The notes under the pieces were generated by a model. It ran no database searches. It saw only the letters and a list, made by a program, of their open reading frames with translations, and was not told the origin of the DNA. This document shows positions 2-35,463 of a stretch of DNA of 35,463 nucleotides, piece after piece (position 1 is the stretch's first letter; each line of letters starts with the position of its first letter). This stretch comes from a virus, in IMG/VR virus record IMGVR_UViG_3300031718_000096, positions 1-35,463 of that record. One strand, given 5' to 3'. Both the position numbers and the translations under genes were made by a program.

Positions 2-127
2 AATCGGCTGGAGTCATGGAATTACTTAGGGGTTGCTGTTACACCCGCCGGCGCCAACGGATTGGACAAAAAAGTTGCACTTACTTCCGAGCTAAATGCG
101 CTCTCAAATCCGGAACTGTCAATCGCC
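2..127. repeat. Left copy of 126-bp terminal redundancy
   Basis: These 126 bases are identical to 35338-35463 at the other end; base 1 (t) differs from 35337 (a). The repeat spans the 3' end of the FN3 gene and the start codon of the lysozyme-like gene, so joining the ends restores a continuous gene order. A direct overlap of this size is what assembly of a circular or circularly permuted genome leaves. A true short direct terminal repeat cannot be excluded. The unique genome length is about 35,336 bp. Confidence 0.95.
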
Positions 128-384
128 GTGACTACATAGAAATATTTCGTCGCTCCAGCGCCAGCCGTATCGACATAAGTAAGCGTCGTTACTGCAATCG
201 GGGTTGTATTCTGTTTTGTATACGGCCCCCCCGTGGTGGTTCCTCGATACACATTGAATCCGGTAGCGAGATCCGCTCCCTGGGTGTAGCTCCAACCAAT
301 CGTGATGCTATGTTGCGTTTGCGGCCAGGCCACAACCGCTAGAAGCAAAAACGCAAAAATCGAAATACCGAATCTTCGTTTCAT
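22..384 (-). CDS. Exported single fibronectin type III domain protein
   Basis: A 120-aa protein starting at ATG 382-384, with AAGGAG five bases upstream; a longer reading to 519 has no such site. Residues 1-22 form a Sec signal peptide: Lys-Arg-Arg, a hydrophobic core, then AWPQ. The rest is one FN3 domain with the GFNVYRGTTTGGPYT strand pattern, a core Tyr-Val-Asp-Thr stretch and YFYVVTAIDSSGFES. FN3 domains of this style are common in secreted Acidobacteria proteins and in phage surface proteins, where they bind carbohydrate or cell surfaces. The gene lies just upstream of the lysozyme-like gene across the circle junction. Its exact role, such as surface adhesion or lysis accessory, is unknown. 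Confidence 0.85.
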   Translation of the reverse strand: MKRRFGISIFAFLLLAVVAWPQTQHSITIGWSYTQGADLATGFNVYRGTTTGGPYTKQNTTPIAVTTLTYVDTAGAGATKYFYVVTAIDSSGFESAFSSEVSATFLSNPLAPAGVTATPK

Positions 385-652: not shown

Positions 653-1183
653 TTAAAAGTAGATGTTCAAACCCGTAGAAATATTCTGCGCGTTGTTGGT
701 CGTGACAAAACCATTTTGCACGCCGCCATGCAGATAGTCGATTCCGATGATCTGCAACGAAATATGATCCGCAAGCGGATAGCTGAAATGCACGCCTGCT
801 GTTTCCGCAATCCGGTTCACCGTAGGCTGAAGAAGTTTTCCCGCGCCCGCACTGAAGGTGACTCCTATTTTCGTGGTATCGAACAAAATCTTTTTAGACA
901 GAGTGGCCCCGAGTAGCTCATTAAGCGGCCTCGTATAAGCGACAACACCCAATTCCCATCGGGCGCTTGCGGAGGAAACAGAGATGTGCTCATAGCCGAC
1001 GGAGATGGTAGGCGTGACCTGAATTGCCGCCGTAGCAATCACCGCCGGTGTCGTGGAGCTGCTCGAACGGAATTCCGAATAGTTTCCAGACATCGTAAAC
1101 AGATTAGGTGCCGGAATGGACTGCGCGTGCAGGCCGATAGCAAAGAGAGAAGCGAGAAAAGCGATTGCGAGTTTCATCTTCAT
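653..1183 (-). CDS. Phage-encoded outer-membrane beta-barrel protein
   Basis: A 176-aa protein. Residues 1-21 are a Sec signal peptide ending GLHAQ. The mature part has alternating polar/hydrophobic strands typical of an 8-stranded barrel (for example ISVGYEHISV, WELGVVAY, KIGVTFSAG, GVHFSYPL, ISLQIIGIDY). It ends in Leu-Asn-Ile-Tyr-Phe, the C-terminal aromatic beta-signal recognised by the BAM complex. It has no cysteines. Known phage outer-membrane proteins such as lambda Lom and other small OmpX-like barrels alter the surface of the infected cell or block superinfection; that role here is inference. AAAAGGAG precedes the ATG. The upstream gap is filled by the possible readthrough tail of the tailspike. 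Confidence 0.82.
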   Translation of the reverse strand: MKMKLAIAFLASLFAIGLHAQSIPAPNLFTMSGNYSEFRSSSSTTPAVIATAAIQVTPTISVGYEHISVSSASARWELGVVAYTRPLNELLGATLSKKILFDTTKIGVTFSAGAGKLLQPTVNRIAETAGVHFSYPLADHISLQIIGIDYLHGGVQNGFVTTNNAQNISTGLNIYF

Positions 1184-1316: not shown

Positions 1317-3203
1317 CTAATTGTAGCAAACCTCGGCAGGGATGGCATTGGCATGTCCTGCTAGCGTCGAGCTATCAAGATTGCCGCCTGTCACATCAGG
1401 GCCAATTGGAGGCCACGGCACACTTCCGAACCAAGAAGGCTTTGATGCATGAACAAACGAAGCGGGAAGCGTGTGTGTGATCGAATCGTTCCAGATGATC
1501 GAATTGCTGGCTATATCGAAATTGCCGTGTTGAAAAAGAGTGCCTGATGCAAGACCAACCCAATATCCCGCCGTTGGCCCAGGACCATCGGAAAAGGTTG
1601 TAACTCCAGAGCCGGATGAATCCGGGCCATTGTCATAGCCCACACTCACAGGATAAAGAAAACTCTGAAAATTTCTGCTGGCTGAAGGAATCACGGTTGA
1701 AGTAAAAGGAGATGGCCCTCCGTTGTACTTGCCATTTGTCGCCGCCGTCACTGCATCCGCTGAACCGAGAATATTGCCAATGGCGTTTGTGTTCGTATGA
1801 ATGAAAGCATTCGTGATCGGATACATGTACTGATTTGCAAGAGTCGTGCTAGACCAGTTCACAGTTTGTCGTCCTGAAACATTTGTGGGAGATGCAAGAG
1901 TTTCTACCCCTCGGAACAGCCCCCGGAAGAATGTCTCATTCGCCCCAGATCCCCAGAAGCTATCCATCGTGATGGTGTTGCCGATGTTTCCCTCGTAGAG
2001 ATTGAACTGTGGATGTGCTCCATGCTCCACAAATGAACCGAGAATAGCAGTCGGAGAAGATGTGCCATTGCATGATCCGCAATCGAAATTCCCGATGCTG
2101 TAATTATAGGCAATCACATTGCCAGCAGCTCCCCATTCCAGCATGATCCCGACGTGAAGACGTTCGGCGATATTGTTTTCGACAAGCGTGGCCGATGTTT
2201 TGTTGAGGAGATCCACATCGGAATCCGAACCTCCGGAAGAATGTGTGTATGCATTCGAGAAATAACTATCACGAATTTCACCGTGCAAACTCCAATAAAA
2301 ATCCACATGATCAGCATCGGCATAATTGTCGAACACTTCTTTGATCCAGCAGGAGTAGCAAGCCGTTCCAGTAAACACCTGGGAATAGCCCGTGCCGTTT
2401 GAAAACACCTGCAAGAGTTCCACGCCTGCAAAATTGGTCGCGGCATATGGATAAACCAGGGCCGGACCCGTAGAAGTCGCAGTGCCATAATTCGTATATA
2501 GCGCCGGCGAAATGGTCAACGTCGTTCCGGCAACATTTGTGACAAGCACCACCTGGCCGCGCGTGCGGACTCCGTTGTCTCCCGTGCCATCACAAAAAGT
2601 ACATCCGCTTGGATTTTGTATCGAATGTATCGAGACATAAACGGGATCGTTCAATTCAGATACGGCCAGCAAAGTCCCGCTTGATATTCCCGAGGCGCTC
2701 GCAACTACAATGCTCGTTGAACCGGCTGTTGCCCCCGAACTGATTGAAGTAGATGCTGGGCTCGTGAAGTTCGGTCCGGTTAGATTCCCAAGGCTGATTA
2801 CGGCACCGCTCGTCCCAGTGGCATTCAAAATTGTTTTGAGCGTTCCCGCCCCACGCAATGTGCAATTGGACGGCACGGTGAGCGTACCGTTGATCGTGTA
2901 AGTTCCGGTAACGAGAAGAACGACTTGCCCTCCAGAACAGGAAGCGAGGGCCGCATTTAATTGGGCGAGCGTGGCGCTTGCTCCAGCCGAAGTTGCCGTC
3001 ACGCAGGCTGCCGTTATGCAGATCGTCGTTCGATTAGGAATCCCGCCGACGACTCCAACGCCAGACCAATCCACGGCCCATTTCTGTGGAGAAGAAACAC
3101 TCTCGCCACTGCCGGATGGAGCGTTCAGAAGCGTAGACCAAAGTTGCGCATGCGCGACGGCTGGCAGGAATAAACAACACAACAAAAGGACTAAACGTCT
3201 CAT
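1317..3203 (-). CDS. Exported right-handed beta-helix (pectate-lyase-like) tailspike-type protein
   Basis: A 628-aa protein starting at ATG 3201-3203, which overlaps the TGA of the preceding gene, so it is probably translationally coupled; an in-frame ATG at 3216-3218 is an alternative. Residues 1-20 are a signal peptide with a Leu/Cys core ending VAHAQ. Residues about 60-130 hold LLVTGTYTINGTLTVPSNCT, the usual entry turn of pectin-lyase-fold helices. The middle repeats NVIAYNYSIGN- and LVENNIAERLHV-type coils, which indicate a parallel beta-helix that binds or cleaves polysaccharide. Several close Cys pairs (CTFC, CYSC, CGSC) suggest disulfides. The best guess is a receptor-binding or depolymerase spike that is exported; an acquired secreted host enzyme is the alternative. 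An amber stop is followed by an open extension. Confidence 0.85.
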   Translation of the reverse strand: MRRLVLLLCCLFLPAVAHAQLWSTLLNAPSGSGESVSSPQKWAVDWSGVGVVGGIPNRTTICITAACVTATSAGASATLAQLNAALASCSGGQVVLLVTGTYTINGTLTVPSNCTLRGAGTLKTILNATGTSGAVISLGNLTGPNFTSPASTSISSGATAGSTSIVVASASGISSGTLLAVSELNDPVYVSIHSIQNPSGCTFCDGTGDNGVRTRGQVVLVTNVAGTTLTISPALYTNYGTATSTGPALVYPYAATNFAGVELLQVFSNGTGYSQVFTGTACYSCWIKEVFDNYADADHVDFYWSLHGEIRDSYFSNAYTHSSGGSDSDVDLLNKTSATLVENNIAERLHVGIMLEWGAAGNVIAYNYSIGNFDCGSCNGTSSPTAILGSFVEHGAHPQFNLYEGNIGNTITMDSFWGSGANETFFRGLFRGVETLASPTNVSGRQTVNWSSTTLANQYMYPITNAFIHTNTNAIGNILGSADAVTAATNGKYNGGPSPFTSTVIPSASRNFQSFLYPVSVGYDNGPDSSGSGVTTFSDGPGPTAGYWVGLASGTLFQHGNFDIASNSIIWNDSITHTLPASFVHASKPSWFGSVPWPPIGPDVTGGNLDSSTLAGHANAIPAEVCYN

Positions 3204-6200
3204 CAATGTGCCGTCCATGTTCCGGTAAAAGATTTTGTAAGGTAATGCGTTGGATCTCGGCCAATGATGCACACCTGATCCCCCACGGCCCCCGCCGAAG
3301 TAAATGTTCCTGTTCCCGCTGTTCCATAGGCCGTGCGGGCGGTGTTCTCATATTGAGCACCACTGCCAAGCGCTCCAAGCGTGATGACCGAACTAACATT
3401 GTCATCATTCATTACGCAGAATTGATCTCCTGCGGCTGGAACAGGTGGAGTCACGGTGCATGCGGCAGTGCAAACGAAGAAACCGTTTGGCGCTACGACT
3501 ACGTTTCCGGTGCTTGAGCCGATAGCAAGGGGAACTGGAGCAACAAGAGCTACAGGCTGACCGCTTTCGGTAATTTGTCCATCCGCATTAACAGGTCCGC
3601 CAACATCAAGAGTATAGATCGTTCCCAGAAGCGAAGGTTTTTTACCAATGCCGAAGTGATCGCCAGATCCTAGACCGAGCCATGAATCTACGCCGCCTTC
3701 ACTGGCAAATTTCAACCAGTATGCCGTGGAAAATATCTGTGGAGTCCCTGTTCCCGTTGGAGTTCCGCACCCAAAATTGAAGGAAGTTTGATTCGTCGTT
3801 TGGAAATAAGAATTCTCTCCTCCTGACGTGGTGCCGTACCAGATGCGGTATACGGGAGAAGCAAACGCAGGAGCATAGTTGATGGTGATGATTTGTCCGC
3901 CAGCCCCGGTACTGGCGCTTGTCTCCTGCGTCTGCGGGGTAATTTTGGTCCAACCGATTCCATCGCCTTGACTAAGCGCAAAGAAATAAGTAATTCCTGA
4001 CGCACAACTTCCGCCCGCGCCTCCATTCGTAATAGTGAATGTTGGTGGCGGTATCAATATGGCCGCTTCAGGCACATCTCCGTTGCCATTGTTCGGAAAG
4101 TTCATGAAGAATTGACCGCCAACAATCTGGCGCTTTGCGCCCGTGCGCGTTTCCCCTAAATTTAAATCTTGATCGGCTGGCAGAATGTTTCCATCCCAGG
4201 ACGATACAGAGCTACTTGTGATTGAAAGAGGAAGATCCGCGCCAACTGTCGGATCGCTGCCTCTTGGCATGTTCCATACGTCATTGCCGACAAGTCCAGC
4301 GATGTTAGGAGCGGCGCATCCGGTAGTGCCTGCCCTCGGAATGTAATATTCACCCTTATAAGCAGCTTGATCCGCGCCGATGAAGAACTCTTGAATGTTG
4401 TCCAATATGCCAACTCTCGTATCAAAGGGAGAATTTGTGCATCCAGTATCCACTGTGAACATTCCCTTGGACCGAACGCTCTCCGTAAACAATTGACTCC
4501 ACTTGCCGAATTTCCAAGCAGAGATGCCCTGGCCTGCGTTCGGCGCAGGAGAATCAACTTTGACCGCTCCATAAAACAAAGCGAAATCCCGCACTTCCCA
4601 ATCCACCGATACGTTCTGTCCGCTGTTCCAGACATTCGTTAAATAAATCGAGTAGCGATTCACGGGAGCGCCGAGTTCCACTGATGCCGCATTGCATTTG
4701 AAGTTATAAATCTTGGCGAAGATCACGTTTGCATTTGCATAGAGACAATCTCCCCCGACGCTATGCTGCCCTGAAAAATTGTCGATCGTGACGCTACTTG
4801 TTCCAGTTGTGGGGATATTGGCAAAAATTAAGTCGTGACTGGCAGAAGCAATTGACGTACTAGCGCCACGCACGGTTTGGTTTCCGCCTTCGAATAACAT
4901 CCCATCCATTTCACTTTGCAGACTTTGGGGAGTATAGAATGCGGAGCTATCCGTTGCAATTTCCACCTGATTATCTATATTAAAAATGACTTGACTTGCT
5001 GTATGGCTGTGCCCGATCAAAGTTCCGTTATAGCTCATTACTATAGGGTGAGTTACTGGCTCAATGATTCCAGTAGCATCTAGCGTGTAACCTTGAACCG
5101 GAGGACCAACGCCGCCAATTTGCAACCTGGATACGAGATAATGACCGGATGGCAGTATTACTTCGGGACCTCCAATTGGACCATTCGCAACCGATGTCGC
5201 CGCCGCGGCTATGGCATTCATGATCGGTAACTGATTGTCATGAAATGTGAACGCCGCCGTATTCGATGTCACTGCGCTTGTGGCAAGCACTAAATTGTTG
5301 GTTCCAGCTCCCGACACGATCGTTGTTTTCAACAGATCAGCGGTAGCTGTGGATGGTGGAGTGCTTGGGCAATTTAAATTGCGATTCCACACGGTGCCAT
5401 CATCGTTGAATGCGGGCATATAGGTCCGACCGAGGAAACTGTTGTTTCTATAAACACAGAGATAATCCACGTCGCCAGGCGCGCCGGATGCGCCTGGAAA
5501 CTGAAAACCAAAATAGACCCAAATGTTGTCAAGCGCCGTAAGGGTCGCTGGCCCGTTCGTGACTGTCAATGTGGCAGACTTCGCCGAGCATCCACCGTTG
5601 TGCCCCACAGCGCAGACATTGTATGTGTATGTTGTCGTACCTGGATTCGTTCCCTCGTAAAGAGCCATCCCCTGATTGAGAGTGCCGCCACTAGATGAGG
5701 TATTCGCCCCTGCCTGATTCCATGTCAGTGTAGTTGTTCCATTTCCTCCGGTTGTGAAGAACACCCCGTTATATGTGGAATCCGTCACCCCTATGACTTG
5801 CACATAAGAACTGGTCTGAATCGGACCGATAGACGAAACCGTAGCCGTCACCACGCCGGACAATCGTGAAATCGAAGAAATCGAAATCGGATTTACATTG
5901 GGAGCCTGAACCGTCGCCAAGGGGCCACAGCCAAAAAGGCTGATGTATTGTCCATTTTTCCAATCTCCGGGCAGCGTATTTGGTGCGGAATAAGTAGCCG
6001 TAAGCGTGACATTTGGAGATGTGGCATTGCAAGTAGCTCCAAATGTAGCTGTCGAACTCACGCATCCATAGGCGGTGCAATCAACAAAAGGATCTGGCCC
6101 TTTAATGCTTAAACTATTTCCGTCCGGAGTGGTTATTCCCGAAGCGCCGCCAAACACGCCTAGATTGTTAAATTGAACTTGCCCACTGCTACCGGCCGGA

Positions 6201-6598
6201 TTTCCACTTCCACCGCTTGCGAGACTCGGAGAAATCACGAATAATTGCCCGGTGACTCCCGATCCCGTCTGACTCGCCAAATATCCGGACGTGCTGGGCG
6301 TGATATAAAAACCCCAATTTCCATTTGCATCCGCAGTGAAAGGATTCGGAGCCACAACCGTCAATGCGGCATTGGAATAGATCGTCACAAGAGGTGAGCA
6401 TGGAATCCCGCCGCCGGTTGAAGCGCAGACGGTGATCTGCGCATTGGGAACCGCCTGCAAAACAGAATTACCCGGAATCCCCGGAACGCTTGTGGGAGTA
6501 TTAACAACGGCCTGGCCCGAAATGAATACACCCTGCGCATGGGCCGATAGAGTCAATCCTAAAATAAGACCAATGAGAATCAGCGTTCTACGAAACAT
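3203..6598 (-). CDS. Exported giant tail fibre/tailspike-type protein
   Basis: A 1131-aa protein. The start ATG 6596-6598 has GGAGGG just upstream; the open frame extends to 6697 but would bury the signal peptide. Residues 1-22 are a signal peptide ending LSAHAQ. The N-terminal region has the fibre motif TIYSNAALTVVAPNPFTADA, as in phage fibre anchor domains. Then come GSSGQVQFNN (fibre-shaft style), an FN3/Ig-like stretch, a beta-helix section introduced by VILPSGHYLVSRLQIGG, and a C-terminal knob ending TGTWTAH. I count about 20 cysteines, far more than in the head proteins, with close pairs such as CTAAC. It is the largest gene and follows another fibre gene with a similar signal peptide. 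Receptor binding is likely; why it carries a Sec signal is unexplained. Confidence 0.85.
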   Translation of the reverse strand: MFRRTLILIGLILGLTLSAHAQGVFISGQAVVNTPTSVPGIPGNSVLQAVPNAQITVCASTGGGIPCSPLVTIYSNAALTVVAPNPFTADANGNWGFYITPSTSGYLASQTGSGVTGQLFVISPSLASGGSGNPAGSSGQVQFNNLGVFGGASGITTPDGNSLSIKGPDPFVDCTAYGCVSSTATFGATCNATSPNVTLTATYSAPNTLPGDWKNGQYISLFGCGPLATVQAPNVNPISISSISRLSGVVTATVSSIGPIQTSSYVQVIGVTDSTYNGVFFTTGGNGTTTLTWNQAGANTSSSGGTLNQGMALYEGTNPGTTTYTYNVCAVGHNGGCSAKSATLTVTNGPATLTALDNIWVYFGFQFPGASGAPGDVDYLCVYRNNSFLGRTYMPAFNDDGTVWNRNLNCPSTPPSTATADLLKTTIVSGAGTNNLVLATSAVTSNTAAFTFHDNQLPIMNAIAAAATSVANGPIGGPEVILPSGHYLVSRLQIGGVGPPVQGYTLDATGIIEPVTHPIVMSYNGTLIGHSHTASQVIFNIDNQVEIATDSSAFYTPQSLQSEMDGMLFEGGNQTVRGASTSIASASHDLIFANIPTTGTSSVTIDNFSGQHSVGGDCLYANANVIFAKIYNFKCNAASVELGAPVNRYSIYLTNVWNSGQNVSVDWEVRDFALFYGAVKVDSPAPNAGQGISAWKFGKWSQLFTESVRSKGMFTVDTGCTNSPFDTRVGILDNIQEFFIGADQAAYKGEYYIPRAGTTGCAAPNIAGLVGNDVWNMPRGSDPTVGADLPLSITSSSVSSWDGNILPADQDLNLGETRTGAKRQIVGGQFFMNFPNNGNGDVPEAAILIPPPTFTITNGGAGGSCASGITYFFALSQGDGIGWTKITPQTQETSASTGAGGQIITINYAPAFASPVYRIWYGTTSGGENSYFQTTNQTSFNFGCGTPTGTGTPQIFSTAYWLKFASEGGVDSWLGLGSGDHFGIGKKPSLLGTIYTLDVGGPVNADGQITESGQPVALVAPVPLAIGSSTGNVVVAPNGFFVCTAACTVTPPVPAAGDQFCVMNDDNVSSVITLGALGSGAQYENTARTAYGTAGTGTFTSAGAVGDQVCIIGRDPTHYLTKSFTGTWTAH

Positions 6599-6731
6599 CG
6601 TCCCTCCGAAGTGCAGCAAATGATCATCATGTTTCCGCCAATCTTTTCTGGCAAACAGAGCCATGGAGAAACCAGTCGATTGTGGCGAGTAGCGCATCCC
6701 GTGAATATCATTACCACCAGGATAAGCATCT

Positions 6732-7901
6732 TCAATTTGCCGTCAACTGTTCCAAAACTGGAACGATCACATAGGACGGACCGGGAGAGCAGCTTCCCCC
6801 AAGTGTATAAGTCGTTGAATATTGAATTACCGTTCCTGCCTTCGCCCGGATCGTGCCAGTGTTCGCAAAAGCCGAACTATTCGGATATGTAATGCTGAAC
6901 GCATATGCAGCACCTGGAACCCCATTCTCGTTGCCGCTACTTGTGAGAAGAAAGGAAACGCCAGGATTAACTGTGATCGGAGCAGCCGCAAATGGATCGG
7001 TATAAGTAAGAAACGGTTGTACGCTTGTGTTGCCAACGCAACTTGTTCCTGCCGCCGATAATTCAAAGTAATAGGAAAAGCGATACGTCGCATTGCTTCC
7101 GCCCACCGTGACCATTGTCGTCGCGCCGATGCTTGCGGCGCCGGAAGCGGATGGGGTGCTATACACAGTGGTGGGAATAAACAGTCCACAACCTGAACCA
7201 AGCGTGCAAGTTGTTGAACCGATCGATGTCACTCCGCTGCCAGGAAACTGCGAGAGCGTAGCTACGCCGGCAATGCTTGGAAGCGTATTCCAAGTAGCCG
7301 TGCCGATACTCGATAAGACAGGAACCATGCCATTCGATGGACTCCCTAGCAATTGATATCCGCTCCAAAATTGGGCATTCAAATTCGGAATCGTCGTTGT
7401 GTTCGAAATGGAAAATGTCGTGAATCCTGGCGTTCCGGAAAATGCGGGATTCCCGGTAAAGGTTCCGGTGAGGTTTCCGCCATTGATGCTCGCTCCACCT
7501 GAGAATGTCTGAAACGCAGTCCATGTATTCGGCGTGCTGAATAGATTCAAGCTTCCGCCGCCGATGCCTACCACTCCATCGATGATGTATTGCTGAACGC
7601 CAAATTGATCCTGCACAAGAATTCGGTAGGTATCACCGGCGATCAACCAGATCGAGACAAAACCGCCGGCATCGCACGTCACAGGATTCGGATTTGGAAT
7701 GGTTCCCGCGTTGTCGAAGAAAGTTCCGAGTGGTGTGCTTGTGCCGGAAATATATGTGAAGATCTTACAACCTGCCAAGGGCTCTCCCGTCTGCGAAAAA
7801 AACTGCGGATGCGGAATGGGCATGAGTCCCACGGAAGTCTGCGCATAAGCTGACAGGCTCAGTCCCAAAATAAGACAAAGGAGAAGTGCTAACTTTTTCA
7901 T
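6732..7901 (-). CDS. Exported tail-fibre-type protein
   Basis: A 389-aa protein. Residues 1-21 are a signal peptide ending SLSAYAQ, closely similar in its CLILGLSLSA core to that of the next gene. The mature N-terminus (PIPHPQFFSQTGEPLAGC, then GTFFDNAGTIPNPNPVTCDA) is a phage tail-fibre connector pattern: product-dimension/default-value strands followed by IWLIAGDTYRILVQDQFGV. The shaft has the typical TWTAFQTFSGG repeat and NAQFWSGYQLLG. The C-terminal 130 residues form a beta-rich knob with six cysteines in total in the mature chain. It starts with an ATGA overlap on the upstream ejection gene, so it is expressed with virion genes. The fibre assignment is firm by pattern; the signal peptide is anomalous for a fibre. 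Confidence 0.85.
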   Translation of the reverse strand: MKKLALLLCLILGLSLSAYAQTSVGLMPIPHPQFFSQTGEPLAGCKIFTYISGTSTPLGTFFDNAGTIPNPNPVTCDAGGFVSIWLIAGDTYRILVQDQFGVQQYIIDGVVGIGGGSLNLFSTPNTWTAFQTFSGGASINGGNLTGTFTGNPAFSGTPGFTTFSISNTTTIPNLNAQFWSGYQLLGSPSNGMVPVLSSIGTATWNTLPSIAGVATLSQFPGSGVTSIGSTTCTLGSGCGLFIPTTVYSTPSASGAASIGATTMVTVGGSNATYRFSYYFELSAAGTSCVGNTSVQPFLTYTDPFAAAPITVNPGVSFLLTSSGNENGVPGAAYAFSITYPNSSAFANTGTIRAKAGTVIQYSTTYTLGGSCSPGPSYVIVPVLEQLTAN

Positions 7902-9307
7902 TGGTTCCCCTGCATTGCAGAAGCGATGCTTGTTCCTGCCGCGAGCGGCATGCCTGCCGATGGAGCGATATTGAATGGAGTTGTGCGAACCGGCTGCAAG
8001 TTTCCCATTCCGCGCCGAATGAGCACATCCGGCTTATTCAAGTAATTAGATAATTCACCGGCAAGAATGCTGAGTCCTCCTGTCGGAGCTGCGCCGGCAA
8101 GTCCAACAATCCTCCCGAGAGACATTGGCTTTGCGCGATCCGCAACGTTCACCCTACGTTCTACTGCATCCTGCAAGGTGTCCAAGGCTCCATAGCGCAA
8201 TCGAGCATCACGCACTCCGGTTTCACCATTCTTTTCAAGTGTGTCCAAGAATTGATTCCTCAGCTCGGCGCGCGCCGCTTCCCATCCTGCCGTTTCCGGA
8301 TTATTCATCAAATTAGCTCGCCGCGCTGCCGGAAACTTTTGGAAATAGGATTCAAGTTGTCCATTCGCATATTTGAGAAGTTTGTTTGCGCTGGTTACAT
8401 CCCGCGCCGATTCTAGTTTCTTTGCAAAGGATTCCAATTTCTCGGCGTTGCCTTCGTCAAATTCTTTCATCTCGTCTGAGATTTGCGCCCGGACTGCATC
8501 GGCGACCGGCTGCATTTCAACAGGTTGTTTCGCCTGACGCTGCAAGGCAGGTTCGACTTCTTCACTCCAAACCTTCTGCTTAATTTCTGGAATGGCATCA
8601 TTTAGATCATGGACATTCTGAATTGGCGATTGTGCATCATAGGCTTTTAAATCTCCTGCCGCGCGTTGAAGGGAAGTATCGAAACCGCTCATGCTCGTGC
8701 GCGGGCTGATACCCTGTTTCATCAATTCTTCGCCGCTTGATGCGAGACCCATCGGATTGCCAATCTTGCGCCAACCGTTGCGAATCGCATCTCCGGAAAC
8801 TTCAGAAATCTTGGGAATGACTCCCGTATCGGCAACCGCTTTAGGTCCGGCAAGAGCAAGCCCTATTCCCGTGCTTATTCCAAGGCCGCTGGCAATTTTC
8901 CCCTGCATGAAATCATTTGCCGCTGCATCCATCTGGGGACCGAGAAAAGGAATGGCCGCATGGAGAAGGTGTGCGGCGCCTTCAGCATAGTTCCCTTTCT
9001 TGAACGCCTCTTCAGCATTTTTATAAACTTCCGTGCGCATGGCCGCATCATTTTTCAGGCTTTCAATGGGATGCGCCGTTAATTGCGCTGCGCCTTGCAC
9101 GGCGGCAATCGGGCTTATTTGTTTCCAGAGAGCTGAACCGAATTCCTTTGCAGGTTCCCAGGATGAGGGCGGTTGATCGGGACTACTTTGCACCGTACCT
9201 TGATCCTCGTATTTCGAGAAGTCAATAGATGGAGGATTTGCTTCCGCAGAAGGTCCGCTAGGAGAAGAAGCATATTTACTCCAATCGATTTGTGGCGCTG
9301 CGCTCAT
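7898..9307 (-). CDS. Putative ejection / internal virion protein
   Basis: A 469-aa protein with no recognised domain. The N-terminus has two short degenerate repeats (IDWSKYASSP, then IDFSKYEDQG) followed by a Pro/Ser-rich linker. A central Ala/Gly-rich hydrophobic stretch near residues 130-165 (GKIASGLGISTGIGLALAGP) could insert in a membrane. The second half is Glu/Lys/Arg/Ala-rich helix with likely coiled coil. Position after the gp10-like and DNA-transfer genes and before the fibres matches the P22 gp7-gp20-gp16 ejection block, so it could play the gp16 role of escorting DNA across the envelope. It has no cysteine. The start ATG overlaps the preceding stop (ATGA), and its own stop overlaps the fibre start. 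Confidence 0.75.
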   Translation of the reverse strand: MSAAPQIDWSKYASSPSGPSAEANPPSIDFSKYEDQGTVQSSPDQPPSSWEPAKEFGSALWKQISPIAAVQGAAQLTAHPIESLKNDAAMRTEVYKNAEEAFKKGNYAEGAAHLLHAAIPFLGPQMDAAANDFMQGKIASGLGISTGIGLALAGPKAVADTGVIPKISEVSGDAIRNGWRKIGNPMGLASSGEELMKQGISPRTSMSGFDTSLQRAAGDLKAYDAQSPIQNVHDLNDAIPEIKQKVWSEEVEPALQRQAKQPVEMQPVADAVRAQISDEMKEFDEGNAEKLESFAKKLESARDVTSANKLLKYANGQLESYFQKFPAARRANLMNNPETAGWEAARAELRNQFLDTLEKNGETGVRDARLRYGALDTLQDAVERRVNVADRAKPMSLGRIVGLAGAAPTGGLSILAGELSNYLNKPDVLIRRGMGNLQPVRTTPFNIAPSAGMPLAAGTSIASAMQGNQ

Positions 9308-10944
9308 TTCACTTTGTATCCCGCGGCCTTCGCCTGCTTCGTCGCTTCTTCCACCGAAACATTATGATCCTTCGCAGCTTGCTCAATCTGCGCCAAGCTG
9401 AGAATTTTCTCTGGCTGATTTGGAGTTGCTTTCGGCACCTTTGTATTGCCTATCACTTTATCAAGCGTCGTCACATTGCCATCTTTATCCATTGCGGGAA
9501 CTTGATCAGGAGTGAGTCCATGTCCTTGTGCGATTAATGCGCTGCTTGTCAGGGCTTTTTTGTGCGCTCCATCAATAAGCAAGTCGGTGAGTTCGTTTCC
9601 CTCTTTTGCGAGCTGTGCGCTTAGTTTTCCGGTTGCGGCCTTTGTCGCCCAGGCATTCCAGCGTTCCGCCCATCCACCAGGCGCACCGGCGGCAGCGGCT
9701 TCCGTTGGAGGAACACGGCTAATTCCACCAGCTTTACCAATACCAAGAACTTCCATCGTTGGCGTCAATGATGTCAGCAAACCATTTCCATTTGCGCCAG
9801 CAACGATAGCTTTTTTGGTGTCTTGAATCTGCGCCAAAGTTGCCGCGAAACCGTGTTGCGGATCACTCCAAATCTTGTCATTTTCGGTCAGGCCAGCTTC
9901 ACCGAATTTATTTCCCATCATTGCGCGGGCTTGCGCGAGAGAGGCTTGCTTCATCTGCTCCGATTTGTATGCTTCATCGGCACGCGCCTGAATCTTTTCG
10001 ACGGCGGCAATCGTCGGCGCATTATTAATTTCCGCTTGGAATCCTTGACGCATTGGCGCGGGAAGAACGTCATATGTCGAGATCGTTTGATTTGCCAATC
10101 TTCGATCATTTTCATCTGGAACGGCAGTTTTCTGTTTTTCGGAAAGTTGCTGGGCCTGTTTAGTTCCATACTCCAAAACATCCTGCATTCCGCCTGTAAG
10201 ATTCAAAATTTTATCCACGTGCAGAGGATCGGCCTGCATGAGCGCCTGATGCAAGGAAGGATCAAACGTCGAAGCCTTCTGCAATTCAGGCTCAGCAGCC
10301 TGTAGCATCGCCGCGCGCTTGGTGGGATCTTGCTCCGCACCAATCGGCGCAAGAACCTTATTTATTTCCGCAAGGCCGTTCTTAACGAGTTCCTGCTTAT
10401 CTGCGGTCTGTTTCAGCACGTCAGCGCGAAATTTGATGAGTGATTGCGCAGTAGCCGCTACCGTGTTTGGAGTTACGCCCGCCCGGATCATCCCATTTGC
10501 CTGCTTTGCGAGTGGATCATCCGAGGACAGACCAAGCATCTGTTCAGCGAAATTAACCTTAGCAGGAGCCGCTACAGCGGGCGCAGTCGGATTTGGGGCA
10601 TTCTGGCCCATTGCGCCGCCGATCGAGGCAGGAGGAGCCATTTCCGTCGCAGGACTGGCCTGTGTAGGAGTATCCGCTTCGTACTTTTCAGGGTTGGACC
10701 AATATTCCATCTGCTTCTGCTGATCCTGAAGCGCAATTTGCCTCTGCTGATTCTCCAGCTGGAGTTGCTGCGCTTGTTGCTGCTGAATTGGAATCTGCGC
10801 CTGTGTTGTTGCGGTTTGGGCTTGGGATTGCGCTTGCTGGTAAGGAAGCATGGCTCGCGCCCGCATGGCGTCGGACATCGACGTAAAGTTCTGCGCGACT
10901 TCGGGACGCGCCATCAGAGATGCGAGCGTTGCGTTATCTGCCAT
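9304..10944 (-). CDS. Putative ejection / internal virion protein, Gln-rich coiled coil
   Basis: A 546-aa protein. Residues about 35-85 are an extreme Gln/Ala run (QTATTQAQIPIQQQQAQQ and following) predicted to be a long helix. After a Pro-rich linker comes a largely helical body with Lys/Glu heptads, no cysteine, and a C-terminal LAQIEQAAKDHNVSVEEA segment that looks like a small three-helix motif. It sits between the DNA-transfer protein and the 469-aa protein and is translationally coupled to the latter. By position and helical composition it is an analogue of P22 gp20/gp16 ejection proteins. No catalytic motif is visible. Confidence 0.75.
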   Translation of the reverse strand: MADNATLASLMARPEVAQNFTSMSDAMRARAMLPYQQAQSQAQTATTQAQIPIQQQQAQQLQLENQQRQIALQDQQKQMEYWSNPEKYEADTPTQASPATEMAPPASIGGAMGQNAPNPTAPAVAAPAKVNFAEQMLGLSSDDPLAKQANGMIRAGVTPNTVAATAQSLIKFRADVLKQTADKQELVKNGLAEINKVLAPIGAEQDPTKRAAMLQAAEPELQKASTFDPSLHQALMQADPLHVDKILNLTGGMQDVLEYGTKQAQQLSEKQKTAVPDENDRRLANQTISTYDVLPAPMRQGFQAEINNAPTIAAVEKIQARADEAYKSEQMKQASLAQARAMMGNKFGEAGLTENDKIWSDPQHGFAATLAQIQDTKKAIVAGANGNGLLTSLTPTMEVLGIGKAGGISRVPPTEAAAAGAPGGWAERWNAWATKAATGKLSAQLAKEGNELTDLLIDGAHKKALTSSALIAQGHGLTPDQVPAMDKDGNVTTLDKVIGNTKVPKATPNQPEKILSLAQIEQAAKDHNVSVEEATKQAKAAGYKVK

Positions 10945-10947
10945 CGT

Positions 10948-11796
10948 TTATCCCTGCGCGAGCGCCGGCCCGCCATTCATGTTGAATGGTACAAAGCCCG
11001 CGCTTCCTGGCGCGTTGTAGGAAGGCGCTGGAATTGGCGGAGGCGCTGCGCTGCTTCCCGTAGACCCGCCATACATGCCCATCGCGTTTCCTATGGAATT
11101 TCCGAATCCAGCCATGCCGATTGCCTGTGCGCCGCCAGCTTGTGCCTGATATCCCGCCTGCTGACTTGCTGCAAGCTGTCCTTGCTGGCCATACAGACCG
11201 GCTCCTTGCATATTTGCGCCAACGCTAGTTTGCGTGGCTCCAAGTCCAGTACCGGCAAGTCCCGAGAGTCGATTATAGAGATTCGATTGATTGTTCTGGA
11301 ACTGGAGATATTGCTGCTGATACTGCTGCATCGCGTTGTTGTAGACCTGCTGGTAATTGGTCGATGCGAGCCCCTGCCCATATTGTTCAAGCTGCTTGCC
11401 GGTTCCTGCACTGAGAAGTCCACCACGAGCCGCCGCCGAGTTTTCAAGTGCCTCTGTGCCTTGCTGCATCTGGAACTGATAGCCCGGAGTCGCTTCCGCT
11501 TCCGCTGCTGTCGGAGCCGTAAAACTTCCAGTGTACGAAGCGAGCGGACCTTGCCCGGAAAGCGCTCCTTGCATTGCGCCACCGAGACTCTGCATTGCCT
11601 GACTTCCGGTAGAAATGTACGGACTTAGTTCCGCCTGACTTTGGGTAACTGCTTTCTCGGTATTGCCCTGTGCCTGAGCGCCGGCCGCTTGGACAGTTCC
11701 AGCCGCCTGTTTATCAGCCTTGGATTGTCGCGCTGCCGCTCCAAGCCCGAACAGGCCGCTGATCAAGCTTCCGATAATGGGGATTGCAGCCGCCAC
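10948..11796 (-). CDS. DNA-transfer (ejection) protein, P22 gp7-like
   Basis: A 282-aa protein with a GTG start at 11794-11796. The N-terminal 20 residues (IPIIGSLISGLFGLGAAARQ) are a Gly/Ala-rich amphipathic or membrane-active helix. Then comes QAELSPYISTGSQAMQSL, a motif I associate with phage DNA-transfer and internal virion proteins (Q..L.PY...G..A...L). The body is Gln/Ala/Gly/Tyr-rich and helical, for example NNAMQQYQQQYLQFQNNQSN, and the C-terminus is Gly/Pro-rich. It has no cysteine. P22 gp7 and relatives are packaged in the head and enter the cell envelope ahead of DNA. The family match is recalled, not searched. Confidence 0.78.
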   Translation of the reverse strand: MAAAIPIIGSLISGLFGLGAAARQSKADKQAAGTVQAAGAQAQGNTEKAVTQSQAELSPYISTGSQAMQSLGGAMQGALSGQGPLASYTGSFTAPTAAEAEATPGYQFQMQQGTEALENSAAARGGLLSAGTGKQLEQYGQGLASTNYQQVYNNAMQQYQQQYLQFQNNQSNLYNRLSGLAGTGLGATQTSVGANMQGAGLYGQQGQLAASQQAGYQAQAGGAQAIGMAGFGNSIGNAMGMYGGSTGSSAAPPPIPAPSYNAPGSAGFVPFNMNGGPALAQG

Positions 11797-11797
11797 G

Positions 11798-12247
11798 TTA
11801 TCCGCCTCCCGCTATAGAAAAGGCTTCCCAATTCGATTTGCCATCGGGAATCAAAACAGTTGCCCGCCATTGCGCCGCCGTTAACGCCAGAATTCCCGCA
11901 CCATTAATTGTGTCTGTTCCGGTTGGCGCAACGGTAATCACGCCAGTTCCATCCGCCTGAATCACGATGTACATGCTGAAAGGAGAGGTTTTTGACGGTC
12001 CTAAAATAAGACTGAATGGCGCGCCACCCGTTGTTATAAATAAAACGTTGTGGACCGAATCCACGATCATCGGTGAGAGCGCGGCTGGAACGAGCGTAGG
12101 GTTAAACGGTTTTTGCGCTTGAATAGCCTGCAATGCCCGCAATCCAGCGATACTCAGTCCTGACGCACTTGATTTGTCAAGGAACTGCGTAGCTCCATTG
12201 ATGAGCGGAGCTTGCGTTGGCGTTTTCCCTGTGACGACTTTGACCAT
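11798..12247 (-). CDS. Small tail/virion protein with C-terminal beta knob
   Basis: A 149-aa protein. I take the start at ATG 12245-12247, which overlaps the TGA of the gp10-like gene; a longer reading to 12355 overlaps that gene heavily and has an unnatural N-terminus. An N-terminal helical part (SGLSIAGLRALQAIQAQ) is followed by a beta-rich domain with GTGVITVAPTGTDTING and SNWEAFSIAGGG, resembling knob or decoration domains of phage surface proteins. It occupies the position of P22 gene 26 (tail needle), right after the gp10-like gene, but lacks an obvious long coiled coil. A plug, needle tip or tail decoration role is inference. Confidence 0.7.
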   Translation of the reverse strand: MVKVVTGKTPTQAPLINGATQFLDKSSASGLSIAGLRALQAIQAQKPFNPTLVPAALSPMIVDSVHNVLFITTGGAPFSLILGPSKTSPFSMYIVIQADGTGVITVAPTGTDTINGAGILALTAAQWRATVLIPDGKSNWEAFSIAGGG

Positions 12248-13803
12248 CACGCACCCATCTTTCGATACATTGCCTTCAAGGAAACACTCGGAGTAAAGCC
12301 GGGATTCGCCTTTAAATAGGCGTCCACAATGCGCCAGGAAATTGGATCGCTGCATGTAAACTCAAATACACGATCTCGGGACTTTCCCATGCGGCGCTGC
12401 ATGGCGCGCACTTTATATTTACCGACTTGTCCAAAATTGATCGTGTGGTAATTCCCCCAAATGTGTCCGCCATCATCCGACCATCTGAGAAAACCTTGCG
12501 GATCGCGCGGATTGCCTTGCGCGTCAAGAACTGTTCCAATTCCTACTTCCGCATCGATCTGAAGCTGTTTATAGAAAATCCATTCCTGCTCTTCTGAAAT
12601 GTGCGGAGCCCTGCGCATCCGGACAATTGGCGTTCCGGCATCATCGAAGTAGTTTTGGGACATGTCATAAATCGTTCCGCTTTTTCGATCACCCACGAGA
12701 TGTTTTCCGAAGGCATACATATGGCAGCGGGCAAGATGCGCGACGTAGTTTCCGGTCTGCGTATTCCAAAAGAGCCGCTTGTGCCACATCGAAGTCGTTA
12801 GGTCGTATACCCAAGTGATATTTCCAGAAGGGAAAAAGAGCACATAAAAGGTGTGTCCGCGATCCTGTTCCGACCAGCCAATTGCGTCAGAAAAGGTTGC
12901 CATGTTCTGAATCGACAATTCGACTGCATGATTGCTGATGCGCACCGGGGTATATCCGGTCATTCTGCGTACAATGCCGCCGCCGCGCTCATCCCCGCCC
13001 AAAAAGAAAATATCGTTGCCTGCCTTGGCAACGCTGTTTGCGGCAATGATCCCTTCCTCGATTTCCGAACCTTGAATTACGGTAAGCGGGAAATTTGGAT
13101 CTCCGGAGTTGTAGTACCAGACACTTTGCTTTGGTCCAAAGAATCCCATCAGGCGATCGTTCTGAATCATTGCCAGCACGTTATCCGTGAACACCGAAAT
13201 ACCGGCCGCACCGGGCGCATTTGCGCTTGTCCAATCCAAAGCGTTCAATAAAGCGGAAAGCTGGAACTGGTTTGTGCCTGCTAGTAGCGCGACAAAAAAC
13301 CCATCGCAATAGGCAACCTGACTGACTGGCACGCTGTTGTTGAAGCTTGCCGCTGGAATTACGGTTACGCCTGCGGGTGGCACCGCCGTAAGATCCAGAA
13401 CATAAGCAGTGCCGCCGCTACAAAACAGCAACTGCCATACACCACCGCCAGCGGACCCATTCGGTCCCGCCGCGAAATACACAGGTTGTCCGTCATCCTT
13501 GATAGGTTGCGTAAATTGAGTGAGCGAGCCATCGGCATTCACCTGATAGAGAAAGGTTCCAATTGCGGCAAAGTACCGGCCCGGATTGTTGGGAGTCGCA
13601 TTACTCAGAACAGCAAATTCCCCGCGCACCGATACCGCATTCGGAACAGCACCAAATACTTTGAGTCCCGGCGTTGGCAAAAGCGGAAGCGTGGACTTAG
13701 CCGCGCCATCCGCCATTTCAGGAAAGAAGTTGATACATTCCTCGGCATTGACGTTCGGGGAAAGCTCGGGATAGGAAGCTCCGCAGAATCCGAAGCGGCT
13801 CAA
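12247..13803 (-). CDS. P22 gp10-like packaged-DNA stabilisation / tail accessory protein
   Basis: A 518-aa protein with a TTG start at 13801-13803 inside a TTGA overlap with the previous stop. It begins with a FCGASYPELSPNVNAEECIN segment typical of the P22 gp10 family (tail hub, Phage_stabilise). Repeated beta-propeller-like blades follow, with Trp/Tyr-rich strands such as FFGPKQSVWYYNSGDPN and HTFYVLFFPSGNITWVYDL. It ends with DGGHIWGNYHTINFGQVG. In P22, gp10 binds under gp4 and forms the tail hub that closes the portal and carries the needle and spikes. The gene order gp4-like then gp10-like matches P22. Family membership is from sequence memory, and I am fairly sure. Confidence 0.88.
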   Translation of the reverse strand: MSRFGFCGASYPELSPNVNAEECINFFPEMADGAAKSTLPLLPTPGLKVFGAVPNAVSVRGEFAVLSNATPNNPGRYFAAIGTFLYQVNADGSLTQFTQPIKDDGQPVYFAAGPNGSAGGGVWQLLFCSGGTAYVLDLTAVPPAGVTVIPAASFNNSVPVSQVAYCDGFFVALLAGTNQFQLSALLNALDWTSANAPGAAGISVFTDNVLAMIQNDRLMGFFGPKQSVWYYNSGDPNFPLTVIQGSEIEEGIIAANSVAKAGNDIFFLGGDERGGGIVRRMTGYTPVRISNHAVELSIQNMATFSDAIGWSEQDRGHTFYVLFFPSGNITWVYDLTTSMWHKRLFWNTQTGNYVAHLARCHMYAFGKHLVGDRKSGTIYDMSQNYFDDAGTPIVRMRRAPHISEEQEWIFYKQLQIDAEVGIGTVLDAQGNPRDPQGFLRWSDDGGHIWGNYHTINFGQVGKYKVRAMQRRMGKSRDRVFEFTCSDPISWRIVDAYLKANPGFTPSVSLKAMYRKMGA

Positions 13804-15280: not shown

Positions 15281-16138
15281 CTACGTGATGGAACTTGGAA
15301 CCCACTTTGCGTTGAGAGAATCCCAACAGAAAGTGATTGAGGTGCCGGCCGTAACGGTGCCGCTCGCCACGGAAATATTTCCTGCCGCCGTCCAGCTAAA
15401 AACACCATCGGCAATCGCCGTGAAACATCCCTGGCCAGGATTCCCCGCTGTTGCATTGGCGTTGAATCCAAGTGGAATGTTGAATCCGGTAACTGCCGCA
15501 GTGCCTGTAATGTGAAAGAACGGCCCGGAAGGAGTAATTGCGCCAGCCGCCGAAGCGACTGCCGTTGTGAGTCCCGCCGGCATCTGTGTGTTTCCGAAAC
15601 CCGGCACCCACGTCCCTGTAATCGTGGAACAGAGCCATTGAAGCCCTGTCTGGATATCAAGGAATGGATTGCTCAAGGTTGCGAGAGTGAGACAGGAACC
15701 ATTGGCGGCATACCAATTTCCGCCATATGGCGATCCTGAATTGAATTGATTCAAATTTCCCAAGAGCACCATCGATCCGGTTTTGTGCTGCTGGGCGGGA
15801 GTTGAACCATAGCTGCGAGTGACTTGCACGACTCCAGTTGTCGCGTTGAACGAAATTACGGCCATTGCTTCGCGGTCAATGTAGATGATCGACTGCGGAA
15901 CGTTATTGACCGCCGCAACAAGGTTGGTCGTGCTGGCAATCGTCAGGAAGGTTACATAGGCGTTGCTAACTCCGGAATACAGAGTAGGACCAGCGCCCAT
16001 TTCGTTGGTCAATGTCGTCTGCGTTAAGCAACTCGACGGTGAGGCCGTGCATTGTGCCGGGGCATATTGCGCGAAGGAAGGACTTGCGCAAAACGCCAGC
16101 ACAAGCAAAAGCAGCAGCACTTTCAGGATTGTTTTCAT
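15281..16138 (-). CDS. Exported structural/decoration-type protein next to the coat gene
   Basis: A 285-aa protein. I choose ATG 16136-16138; the frame could begin at an upstream TTG (16150), which only adds four residues. Residues 1-24 are a strong signal peptide with a poly-Leu core, ending PSFAQ. The mature N-terminal half has a phage structural module: ASTTNLVAAVNNVPQ, YIDREAMAVISF and VQVTRSYGSTPAQQHKTG. This strand pattern (…YIDREAM…V.RG…A..H..G…) is widespread in tailed-phage virion proteins. The C-terminal half is a knob-like domain ending with ITFCWDSLNAKWVPS. There are six mature cysteines. A virion-type module behind a Sec signal is unusual. It follows the coat stop by one base. 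Confidence 0.83.
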   Translation of the reverse strand: MKTILKVLLLLLVLAFCASPSFAQYAPAQCTASPSSCLTQTTLTNEMGAGPTLYSGVSNAYVTFLTIASTTNLVAAVNNVPQSIIYIDREAMAVISFNATTGVVQVTRSYGSTPAQQHKTGSMVLLGNLNQFNSGSPYGGNWYAANGSCLTLATLSNPFLDIQTGLQWLCSTITGTWVPGFGNTQMPAGLTTAVASAAGAITPSGPFFHITGTAAVTGFNIPLGFNANATAGNPGQGCFTAIADGVFSWTAAGNISVASGTVTAGTSITFCWDSLNAKWVPSSIT

Positions 16139-16139
16139 G

Positions 16140-17363
16140 TTAGCTCGCAATTCTCACCCCCAATTGTGGGTACTTGGTGCCCCATCCATACAGGATGTCG
16201 GCCCGAAGCGGAGCCCGGTCCAAGTTGATGTCATACATGCGGATAATGCGGATACTGACTCCTAATTCCCGCGAAGCAGCGCGATCGCCCATGTCGAGCC
16301 CGCCATAAAGCGGAAGATCGGCACAAACAAAAGCGAAAGCATCGGGATGGAAGCATATACCGCGCGGAGAGGAAGTGCCTGGCGCGCCTTGAACCGTTAC
16401 GGCAACGCCATTGCCAGGACTGTTTGATGCGTTCTGGAATTGCCCGGCGACGATGATCCCATTTCCATCAGGACCGGCGATCGGCAAGACTGCCGCGCCA
16501 GCGCCGACGGAAGCCACGGGAGCGGTGATTACCCATTGCGCTAGCGCGCCAGTAGATGCGCGGCTTTGTGGGTTCACGGCAAACACGCCCGCAAAAGTAA
16601 CAATGTCGCCGACATTTAAAATCGGCTGGTTTGCGGTCCATGCTGTCGTGATGATGTTTGCTCCGGTTTGATTGGCTCCGTTCACGGTGGGAGCGCCGAA
16701 TCCGCCGACGGGATTGCCGACGGTCTGGACGCGGACGTTCTGGTCCATGGCGAAGTCGAGTCCGAACGAAGTTCCCATCTCGCCCTTGGCATATTGTTCC
16801 GCGACCAGATCGGACTTCTGGAAAAGTCCCTTGAGAGCATCGACCAGGGAGGTATTCATTGCGGGAGAGTACGCAACGAAGCGCTGGCCGTCTCGCGGGA
16901 CTGACATTTCATCCAGTCTTTGCGCGGCTTGCAGGTAGGTCAGGTCCGAGTTCGGTATCGTCCCCGGAACACCAACTTCATTGAATAGATTCAGATATTG
17001 GAGCAATCCATCTGCGTCTATCCGGTTGGAAATCTGTGCGATGGATGGCCTGAGAAATCGATCCGAAAACTCATCGATGAAGAGTCCGAGTTCCTGCGAT
17101 GTGAAAGCCATGTCCACATGAACTTGGGAATTCAAGGTGAGTGGAACGAAAGTCTCAACGGCGTCCTGAAGCGCGAGCGCCTGACCAACCACCGCGATAG
17201 GACGAATCGGCTTGCGCAGGTTAATGCTCATGCCGATCTTCGCCCCATCCACACCAAAGTGCGAATCATATTCGCGCTTGATTCGTTTCGTGAATGATGT
17301 CTCGTTCACGAGAACGATCAAGGTTTCCTTGGTGATCATTCCGATGGTTAAAAGTTGATTCAA
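16140..17363 (-). CDS. Major capsid protein, P22 coat family
   Basis: A 407-aa protein. It starts with TTG at 17361-17363, seven bases after AAGGAGAA. The N-terminus (LLTIGMITKETLIVLVNE then NETSFTKRIKREYDSHFG) and INLRKPIRPIAVVGQALALQ are typical of P22-type coat proteins with the HK97 fold. The central VGDIVTFAGVFAVNPQSRAS strand region fits the telokin-like insertion domain. The C-terminus is FHPDAFAFVCADLPLYGG then IIRMYDINLDRAP. Directly upstream lies the scaffold gene, as in P22. It has only two cysteines. Its role is the T=7-type shell; the triangulation number is inferred from the family. A non-AUG start on the most abundant virion protein is worth noting. Confidence 0.93.
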   Translation of the reverse strand: MNQLLTIGMITKETLIVLVNETSFTKRIKREYDSHFGVDGAKIGMSINLRKPIRPIAVVGQALALQDAVETFVPLTLNSQVHVDMAFTSQELGLFIDEFSDRFLRPSIAQISNRIDADGLLQYLNLFNEVGVPGTIPNSDLTYLQAAQRLDEMSVPRDGQRFVAYSPAMNTSLVDALKGLFQKSDLVAEQYAKGEMGTSFGLDFAMDQNVRVQTVGNPVGGFGAPTVNGANQTGANIITTAWTANQPILNVGDIVTFAGVFAVNPQSRASTGALAQWVITAPVASVGAGAAVLPIAGPDGNGIIVAGQFQNASNSPGNGVAVTVQGAPGTSSPRGICFHPDAFAFVCADLPLYGGLDMGDRAASRELGVSIRIIRMYDINLDRAPLRADILYGWGTKYPQLGVRIAS

Positions 17364-35353: not shown

Positions 35354-35463
35354 GGAATTACTTAGGGGTTGCTGTTACACCCGCCGGCGCCAACGGATTG
35401 GACAAAAAAGTTGCACTTACTTCCGAGCTAAATGCGCTCTCAAATCCGGAACTGTCAATCGCC
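35338..35463. repeat. Right copy of terminal redundancy
   Basis: Identical to bases 2-127. It carries the ATG of the lysozyme-like gene and the 3' 106 bases of the FN3 gene, showing that the two genes are neighbours across the joined ends. Confidence 0.95.
35358..35463 (-). CDS. Partial duplicate of the FN3 gene 3' end
   Basis: Corresponds base for base to 22-127, the last 34 codons plus stop of the exported FN3 protein. It is present only because of the terminal redundancy and is cut by the window end. It should not be counted as a second gene. Confidence 0.9.
   Translation of the reverse strand, partial: AIDSSGFESAFSSEVSATFLSNPLAPAGVTATPK

Follow-up and report, generated by a model that had tools for sequence, protein, structure and literature searches.

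P22-type tailspikes have no signal peptide and reach their fold within the cytoplasm, and P22 heads that lack spikes are completed in vitro when purified tailspike is added. To our knowledge, the whole assembly of tailed phages, including the folding of their fibres, is understood to take place in the cytoplasm. The tailspikes of P22 and Sf6 (gp9 and gp14), Pam1 and Pan3 lie in the same gene neighbourhood as that observed in the window (the whole 35,463-base record analysed here), with a P22-type portal, coat, gp10 hub and ejection genes, and share the anchor fold and N-terminal register of the 389-aa protein F1; relative to these tailspikes, F1 adds a predicted signal peptide and cysteine pairs. 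Rhodoferax phage P26218 and Xanthomonas phage PBR31 are the closest isolates by tailspike anchor, are among the closest by portal and carry the anchor at the same gene position, but their tailspikes are unsignalled; in each phage a convincing signal was observed only in the protein encoded one or two genes further downstream. The authors of PBR31 named this part of the tailspike the virion-binding domain, by its resemblance to P22 and Sf6 (PMC10975493). The Sec-exported endolysin Lys44 of fOg44 and the SAR endolysins are late phage proteins that, ahead of lysis, pass through the Sec machinery of the host (PMC6116005). They would share this route with the signalled proteins of the window, but are lysis enzymes rather than virion parts and lack an anchor domain. 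ORF22 of Thermobifida phage P1312, encoded just after the tail genes, contains a signal peptide, a phosphodiesterase and a CBM, and its authors took it to be a protein secreted to the cell wall (PMC4569894). It resembles the window fibres in bearing a signal and in following the tail genes; unlike F1, no head-binding domain was reported for it.

The window ends in direct terminal repeats of 126 bases (2-127 = 35338-35463) and is therefore a complete circular assembly. It is a P22-like podovirus and a soil-type virus of bacteria, with its main genes on the minus strand. PHROG matches identified a large terminase, a scaffold and a 265-aa head-tail adaptor at 13800-14597, as well as the portal, coat, gp10-type hub (head closure Hc3) and a DNA-ejection protein (PHROGs 156, 283, 578 and 598) (Table 1). 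Portal relatives, at 34-40% identity, included P26218, PBR31 and P22-like Vibrio and Shewanella phages. The three consecutive fibre/spike genes of 628, 1131 and 389 aa named in the preliminary description (here F3, F2 and F1) were confirmed. F2, p285 and p364 received no assignment at useful scores from Pfam, PHROGs or NCBIfam, and tblastn of these three and F3 against annotated phages returned no match. Against PDB sequences F3 gave only weak antibody matches, which were disregarded. A single, partial homologue of p364 was observed (L327), and F2, F3 and p364 are regarded as putative virion parts.

Table 1. Features of the window, with positions numbered from its first base.
Feature	Position	Strand	Basis
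F1, 389-aa tailspike/fibre	6732..7901	-	gene position, anchor domain and signal peptide
F1 predicted Sec signal peptide MKKLALLLCLILGLSLSAYA, 20 aa, cleavage predicted between A and Q	7842..7901	-	weight matrix 8.75, h-region mean KD 3.51, +2 n-region
F1 mature virion-anchor domain (P22-type tailspike head-binding), Cys45/Cys76 (mature 25/56)	7557..7841	-	tblastn and AF2 matches
F2, 1131-aa putative fibre, 21-aa predicted signal peptide at 6536-6598	3203..6598	-	weight matrix; two invariant Cys in N-terminal domain
F3, 628-aa pectate-lyase-like putative fibre (PF12708, below cut-off), 19-aa predicted signal peptide at 3147-3203	1317..3203	-	profile match and weight matrix
p285, coat-adjacent protein, 23-aa predicted signal peptide at 16070-16138	15281..16138	-	weight matrix; homologue family
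p364, terminase-adjacent protein, 18-aa predicted signal peptide at 23661-23714, 8 mature Cys	22620..23714	-	weight matrix
176-aa putative outer-membrane beta-barrel, 20-aa predicted signal peptide at 1124-1183, no Cys, C-terminal ...NIYF	653..1183	-	weight matrix and sequence
FN3-like 120-aa protein, borderline signal ending ...VVA before WPQ	22..384	-	weight matrix
P22-type coat protein, without signal peptide	16140..17363	-	PHROG 283
P22-type portal protein, without signal peptide	18989..21205	-	PHROG 156
gp10-type hub / head closure Hc3, without signal peptide	12247..13803	-	PHROG 578
Three consecutive ejection-module genes (282, 546 and 469 aa), without signal peptide, no Cys	7898..11796	-	282 aa PHROG 598; 546 and 469 aa by position only
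Large terminase, without signal peptide	23720..25270	-	PHROG 2

Signal peptides were scored with a hand-entered von Heijne-1986 weight matrix, coupled to rules for h-region hydrophobicity and n-region charge, rather than with SignalP 6, and the weight-matrix cut-off for the cleavage site was 5.5. Six proteins passed (F1, F2, F3, p285, p364 and the 176-aa barrel); they scored 7.6-12.7 and had cleavage sites of the A-Q type. The predicted N-termini of the fibres were MRRLVLLLCCLFLPAVAHA for F3, MFRRTLILIGLILGLTLSAHA for F2 and MKKLALLLCLILGLSLSAYA for F1, each followed by Q, and mature F1 is predicted to begin at Q21 (QTSVGLMPIPHPQFF...). Seven signal-bearing proteins had been listed previously, of which six thus have convincing Sec/SPase-I signal peptides; the seventh, the FN3 protein, has n- and h-regions and is borderline because its cleavage site is weak (4.2 against the cut-off). 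The terminase-adjacent protein, given before as 367 aa, does have a predicted signal and is 364 aa long from the best ATG, the longer form using another start. Among the 182 ORFs that six-frame translation gave at a minimum length of 60 aa, seven satisfied the scoring rule, namely the six genes above and one antisense ORF, and N-termini shuffled from the same residues satisfied it in 1.4-7.5% of cases. The signal set in the window exceeds chance. No signals were observed by weight-matrix scoring on portal, coat, scaffold, ejection, hub or adaptor proteins in the window and related genomes, and a looser rule called one of 89 core virion or packaging proteins from 19 genomes, this sole call being an internal start in a terminase. 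The predicted signals are on external appendages, with none on the internal and capsid-forming proteins.

The annotated start codons of the signalled genes are credible because several overlap or directly follow an upstream stop. F1 and the ejection gene before it (7898-9307) share an ATGA in which start and stop overlap, with AGGGGA upstream, the F3 ATG overlaps the F2 stop, and p285 and p364 start directly after the coat and terminase stops, respectively. The F1 signal start overlaps the upstream stop in three loci (the window, L014 and L016); since the ATGA overlap is in part a trivial outcome of Met-Lys/Arg codons, it was counted only in these loci, in which the upstream ORF was checked.

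In a tblastn search of F1 against annotated phages, only residues ~20-99 were matched, and these to the N-termini of P22-like podovirus tailspikes and fibres. Residues 23-98 aligned with the extreme N-termini of the tailspikes of P26218, PBR31 and others, from about residue 4 and all without a signal, and in characterised P22-like relatives the unsignalled head-binding domain begins at residue 1-10. The PBR31 tailspike begins MAVQIAPLPVMRFYDNNNNPLAGGQLFTY, and F1 reads MKKLALLLCLILGLSLSAYA and then, past the predicted cleavage site, QTSVGLMPIPHPQFFSQTGEPLAGCKIFTY. An AlphaFold2 model of mature F1 had a pLDDT >90 for most of residues 11-90, low confidence beyond ~105 and values <50 after ~115, the part in which a P22-type tailspike would have its beta-helix receptor-binding or depolymerase body; the weak pectate-lyase match falls in F3 and not in F1. 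Aligned with VIA-align, the modelled domain matched the P22 tailspike head-binding domain (1lkt; Z 10.1, 1.6 A, 80 residues) and the Pan3 tail complex (9vyg; Z 12.7, 1.2 A, 82 residues), with further structural matches to Sf6 gp14N and Pam1. Model residue 10 aligned to residue 8-13 of the matched chains, and signal cleavage would therefore restore the usual N-terminus. The F1 gene directly follows the ejection genes, which is the tailspike position in PBR31, P26218 and H6/1. On this modelling, F1 is predicted to consist of a signal peptide and then a P22-type tailspike head-binding domain with the corresponding fold.

Viral contigs yielded almost nothing when scanned directly with the single F1 protein or with the portal, and alignments were therefore needed; with these, viral contigs were scanned twice and genomes once for anchor domains. 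A total of 165 distinct anchor domains were obtained, 139 of which have only a few residues between a plain start and the domain and 26 of which follow directly on a predicted signal peptide, the latter count including L109/L110 and L119, which were judged by eye since the scoring rule fails on a charged c-region or a long n-region. The 26 fusions comprise the window, 22 other viral contigs and three bacterial contigs, and the signals that the preliminary description proposed to seek in homologous fibres of related phages are thus present in 22 or more further viral contigs. In a 116-domain tree, six changes account for the distribution of the signal, compared to 23.6 for shuffled labels. The F1 signal may have a single origin; independent origins were considered, and the six changes are compatible with a single one, so they are not claimed. 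The single F1 homologue was signalled in 10 of 10 related complete or near-complete genomes (that of G004 taken from separate scoring) and in none of eight control P22-like phages, and it was the only head-binding-domain protein found in these related genomes. Further signalled fibre genes often followed it in a run, with five in G001, five in G011 and three in G012. Under strict scoring, 33 of 361 proteins were signalled in the related genomes, the window included, compared to 4 of 273 in the controls (P=2e-5). Coat-adjacent p285 homologues carried a predicted signal in 61 of 63 distinct cases, the other two being one cut by a contig end and one with a likely missed signal, and a P22-type coat gene lay beside the homologue in nearly all loci. 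Rare unsignalled members (G011, G020, L102) start at the same domain residue, and p285 appears to follow the same on/off pattern of signals as F1.

F1 was without a signal in the close relatives L096 and L098, and also in L102 and L136, in which F2/F3-type or other downstream fibres were nevertheless signalled. Export is therefore not needed for the anchor to function, which weighs against the reading preferred below. The mixture of signalled and unsignalled members in L102 and L136, the borderline FN3 protein and the 176-aa protein, which by its C-terminus looks like an ordinary outer-membrane beta-barrel, speak against the earlier suggestion that all seven proteins form one coordinated export set; they are not one uniform set.

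Cysteines were compared between signalled and unsignalled proteins. They made up 51 of 2852 mature residues in the signalled proteins of the window versus 21 of 4110 in its unsignalled structural proteins (P=4e-7), the median content of F1 homologues was 2.39% when signalled versus 0.76% when unsignalled (P=1e-11), and the count was even in 59 of 61 members of the p285 family (P=8e-16), with all three P values inflated by the relatedness of the sequences. Even counts were also observed in 22 of 25 full-length F1 homologues, and in 31 of 75 core proteins with cysteine. Sixteen of the signalled anchor domains contained two cysteines and none contained one, and the unsignalled domains had none in 102 cases, one in 36 and two in a single case. 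In aligned rows the pairs occupied mature positions 25+56, 22+25, 26+79 or 30+35, always with both residues or neither. Because cysteines are frequent and paired in the signalled proteins, they indicate folding in an oxidising compartment, and four different pairings are hard to explain unless export is real. The cysteine pattern also points to selection for pairs able to form disulfides. Judged from sequence, export of the signalled proteins is well supported.

The remaining ten signalled anchor domains have no cysteine, an observation that counts against the reading preferred below.

The host of the window is likely a member of the Acidobacteriota. A P22-like phage contig with signalled p285, F1 and 485-aa genes (L192) was binned with an Acidobacteria MAG, and the three bacterial fusions are on Acidobacteriota chromosomes, within the Acidobacteriales. 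The two of these loci that were examined (L169 and L172) lie outside recognisable prophage, so the fusion may also serve a role at the cell surface. The link to the phylum is not strict, as an acidobacterial P22-like prophage (G219) has an unsignalled anchor. Host phylum as an explanation of the signal had been considered when the genome scan first had all Acidobacteriota matches signalled and 0 of 28 others, and was dropped because L169 and L172 are not prophage and G219 is unsignalled. A search for p285 homologues in 396 Acidobacteriota and 398 Pseudomonadota genomes returned only matches too weak to point to a host.

We favour, with a probability of roughly 0.6, the reading that the external appendages leave the cytoplasm by the Sec route, acquire disulfide bonds in the periplasm and join spikeless virions at lysis. 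The appendage proteins would be made as Sec precursors, cut by signal peptidase I after AxA, and would fold into disulfide-bonded trimers in the periplasm; heads with portal and tail hub but without spikes would be assembled in the cytoplasm. At lysis the spikes would meet these heads and dock through the head-binding domain, a late step that the in vitro completion of P22 heads would make feasible. Possible benefits would include disulfide-stabilised spikes for harsh soil, a depolymerase kept apart from the sugar precursors of the cytoplasm, and removal of polysaccharide from the cell surface ahead of release. The interpretation first offered, that the proteins exit the cell and meet the virion outside it or at lysis, is partly supported: the signals and paired cysteines argue for export, and joining is favoured for F1, because its signal directly precedes a P22-type head-binding domain, from which we infer docking after export. 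The broader proposal of a tailed-phage lineage that finishes its virions outside the cytoplasm, with DNA-filled spikeless particles inside, disulfide-matured spikes and surface proteins in the periplasm, and completion only at lysis, has about even odds. We know of no isolate among the signalled phages, and in the part of the literature covered no report of a signal-bearing tailspike was found.

The exported fibres might instead be no part of the virion and act as depolymerases, adhesins or superinfection blockers after secretion from the infected cell or on its surface, with the anchor a generic beta-sandwich or docking elsewhere. We consider this unlikely, although several observations are in its favour. 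L102 and L136 export only distal fibres, and secretion for another role is therefore possible there; such fibres could also dock onto already bound F1. The acidobacterial chromosomal genes, the predicted export of a putative outer-membrane barrel by the window and the secretion proposed for the Thermobifida phage protein (PMC4569894) point the same way. However, F1 is the sole head-binding-domain protein found in these genomes and occupies the tailspike position, its anchor keeps fold and N-terminal register, and a spikeless P22-like particle is not expected to infect. An improbable variant would have the distal fibres and p285 truly exported and F1 dual-localised, with internal starts or leaky targeting giving a cytoplasmic fraction that assembles. 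Met27 just after the window F1 signal, and an ATG or GTG at or near the domain start in several homologues, would allow this, but no start codon lies between cleavage site and domain in five others (L106, L167, L095, L169, L147), the internal starts lack clear Shine-Dalgarno sites, none is conserved, and the paired cysteines argue for one oxidised population.

Two readings deny the signals an export function. The hydrophobic N-termini could stay uncleaved as membrane anchors or assembly elements, for which the SAR signals of phages are a known precedent (PMC6116005); this is very improbable, given that most have AxA-type sites followed by Q and high matrix scores and that cleavage would restore the register of unsignalled homologues. 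Least probable is that the signals are recent, functionless relics of recombination with host genes for secreted proteins. The fibre genes are mosaic and the F1 and F2 signals are alike (LILGLSLSAYAQ and LILGLTLSAHAQ), but the n/h/c architecture has been kept through free sequence divergence in 26 anchor and 61 p285 sequences, and the cysteine pairs appear together with the signal.

If periplasmic maturation followed by docking at lysis is correct, virion assembly would be split between two compartments, the use of disulfide-stabilised receptor-binding proteins by such phages would be explained, and spike secretion and folding would become directly testable. Metagenome annotation could then no longer treat a signal peptide as evidence that a protein is not part of the virion. 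The finding also points to secreted depolymerases that could be useful against polysaccharide-rich soil bacteria.

The N-terminal domain of F2, with its invariant cysteines, was considered as a second head-binding domain and is not claimed as one, the hhalign probability being only 41%. For p285, a head fibre or decoration protein is our guess. Its AlphaFold model had a mean pLDDT of 87.5, and the N-domain matched a VP1 capsid entry chain (9in6) and the JBD30 baseplate at Z 10.2 and a GP4 portal-tail complex at Z 8.9, with the Chi tail tip within 8.9-10.2, all by a modest margin over unrelated rows.

Genes that join a signal peptide to a P22-type head-binding domain, as in the window's tailspike F1, were observed in the chromosomes of three Acidobacteriota: Acidobacteriales 59-55, Terriglobus albidus and one more genome (G267). 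The surroundings of the L169 and L172 genes were without phage genes, and these chromosomal genes possibly represent a domesticated phage spike. An Acidobacteriota genome (G219:C402, L332-L333) was also observed to hold a P22-like prophage, which encodes a 4203-aa ORF and whose anchor protein is unsignalled.

Unsignalled F1 anchors were likewise observed in two phages, and the signalled, Cys-rich genes downstream of it in L102 are homologues of the fibre proteins F2 and F3 and of the FN3 protein. The signalled protein past the tailspike of Xanthomonas phage PBR31 was annotated as a 'putative structural protein'.

Features by locus or window position
Feature	Position	Source or remark
Signal peptide + P22-type head-binding domain	L169:8001-9731	Acidobacteriota chromosome
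Same	L172:7923-8765	Acidobacteriota chromosome
Same	L215:1501-1833	Acidobacteriota chromosome
Unsignalled F1 anchor, then signalled Cys-rich fibre genes downstream	L102:7986-16006	Phage
Same	L136:7977-12312	Phage
Strong signal peptide, 1 or 2 genes past unsignalled tailspike	L238:24659-25483; L239:15489-15998	PBR31; P26218 (Rhodoferax phage)
Putative phage-encoded outer-membrane beta-barrel	Window 653-1183	Signal peptide, C-terminal aromatic residue (GLNIYF)
Long overlapping ORFs, 314 and 308 aa	Window 27666-28620	Same strand, different frames

The putative barrel could serve in superinfection exclusion or lysis. A small signalled protein similar to it was placed after the fibre at L016 (9358-10119).

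Upstream of the scaffold gene, a 152-aa protein of the window (18519-18977) resembles the C-terminal part of G011's unsignalled homologue (L207:1501-2142) of the coat-adjacent protein p285, with IWSD, AHT and LRA.NG.WH as common motifs, and this resemblance suggests domain shuffling among head-region proteins. The window carries a 126-base terminal repeat (2-127 and 35338-35463), and its assembly is therefore circular and complete. The 308-aa ORF looks like a DNA cytosine methyltransferase.
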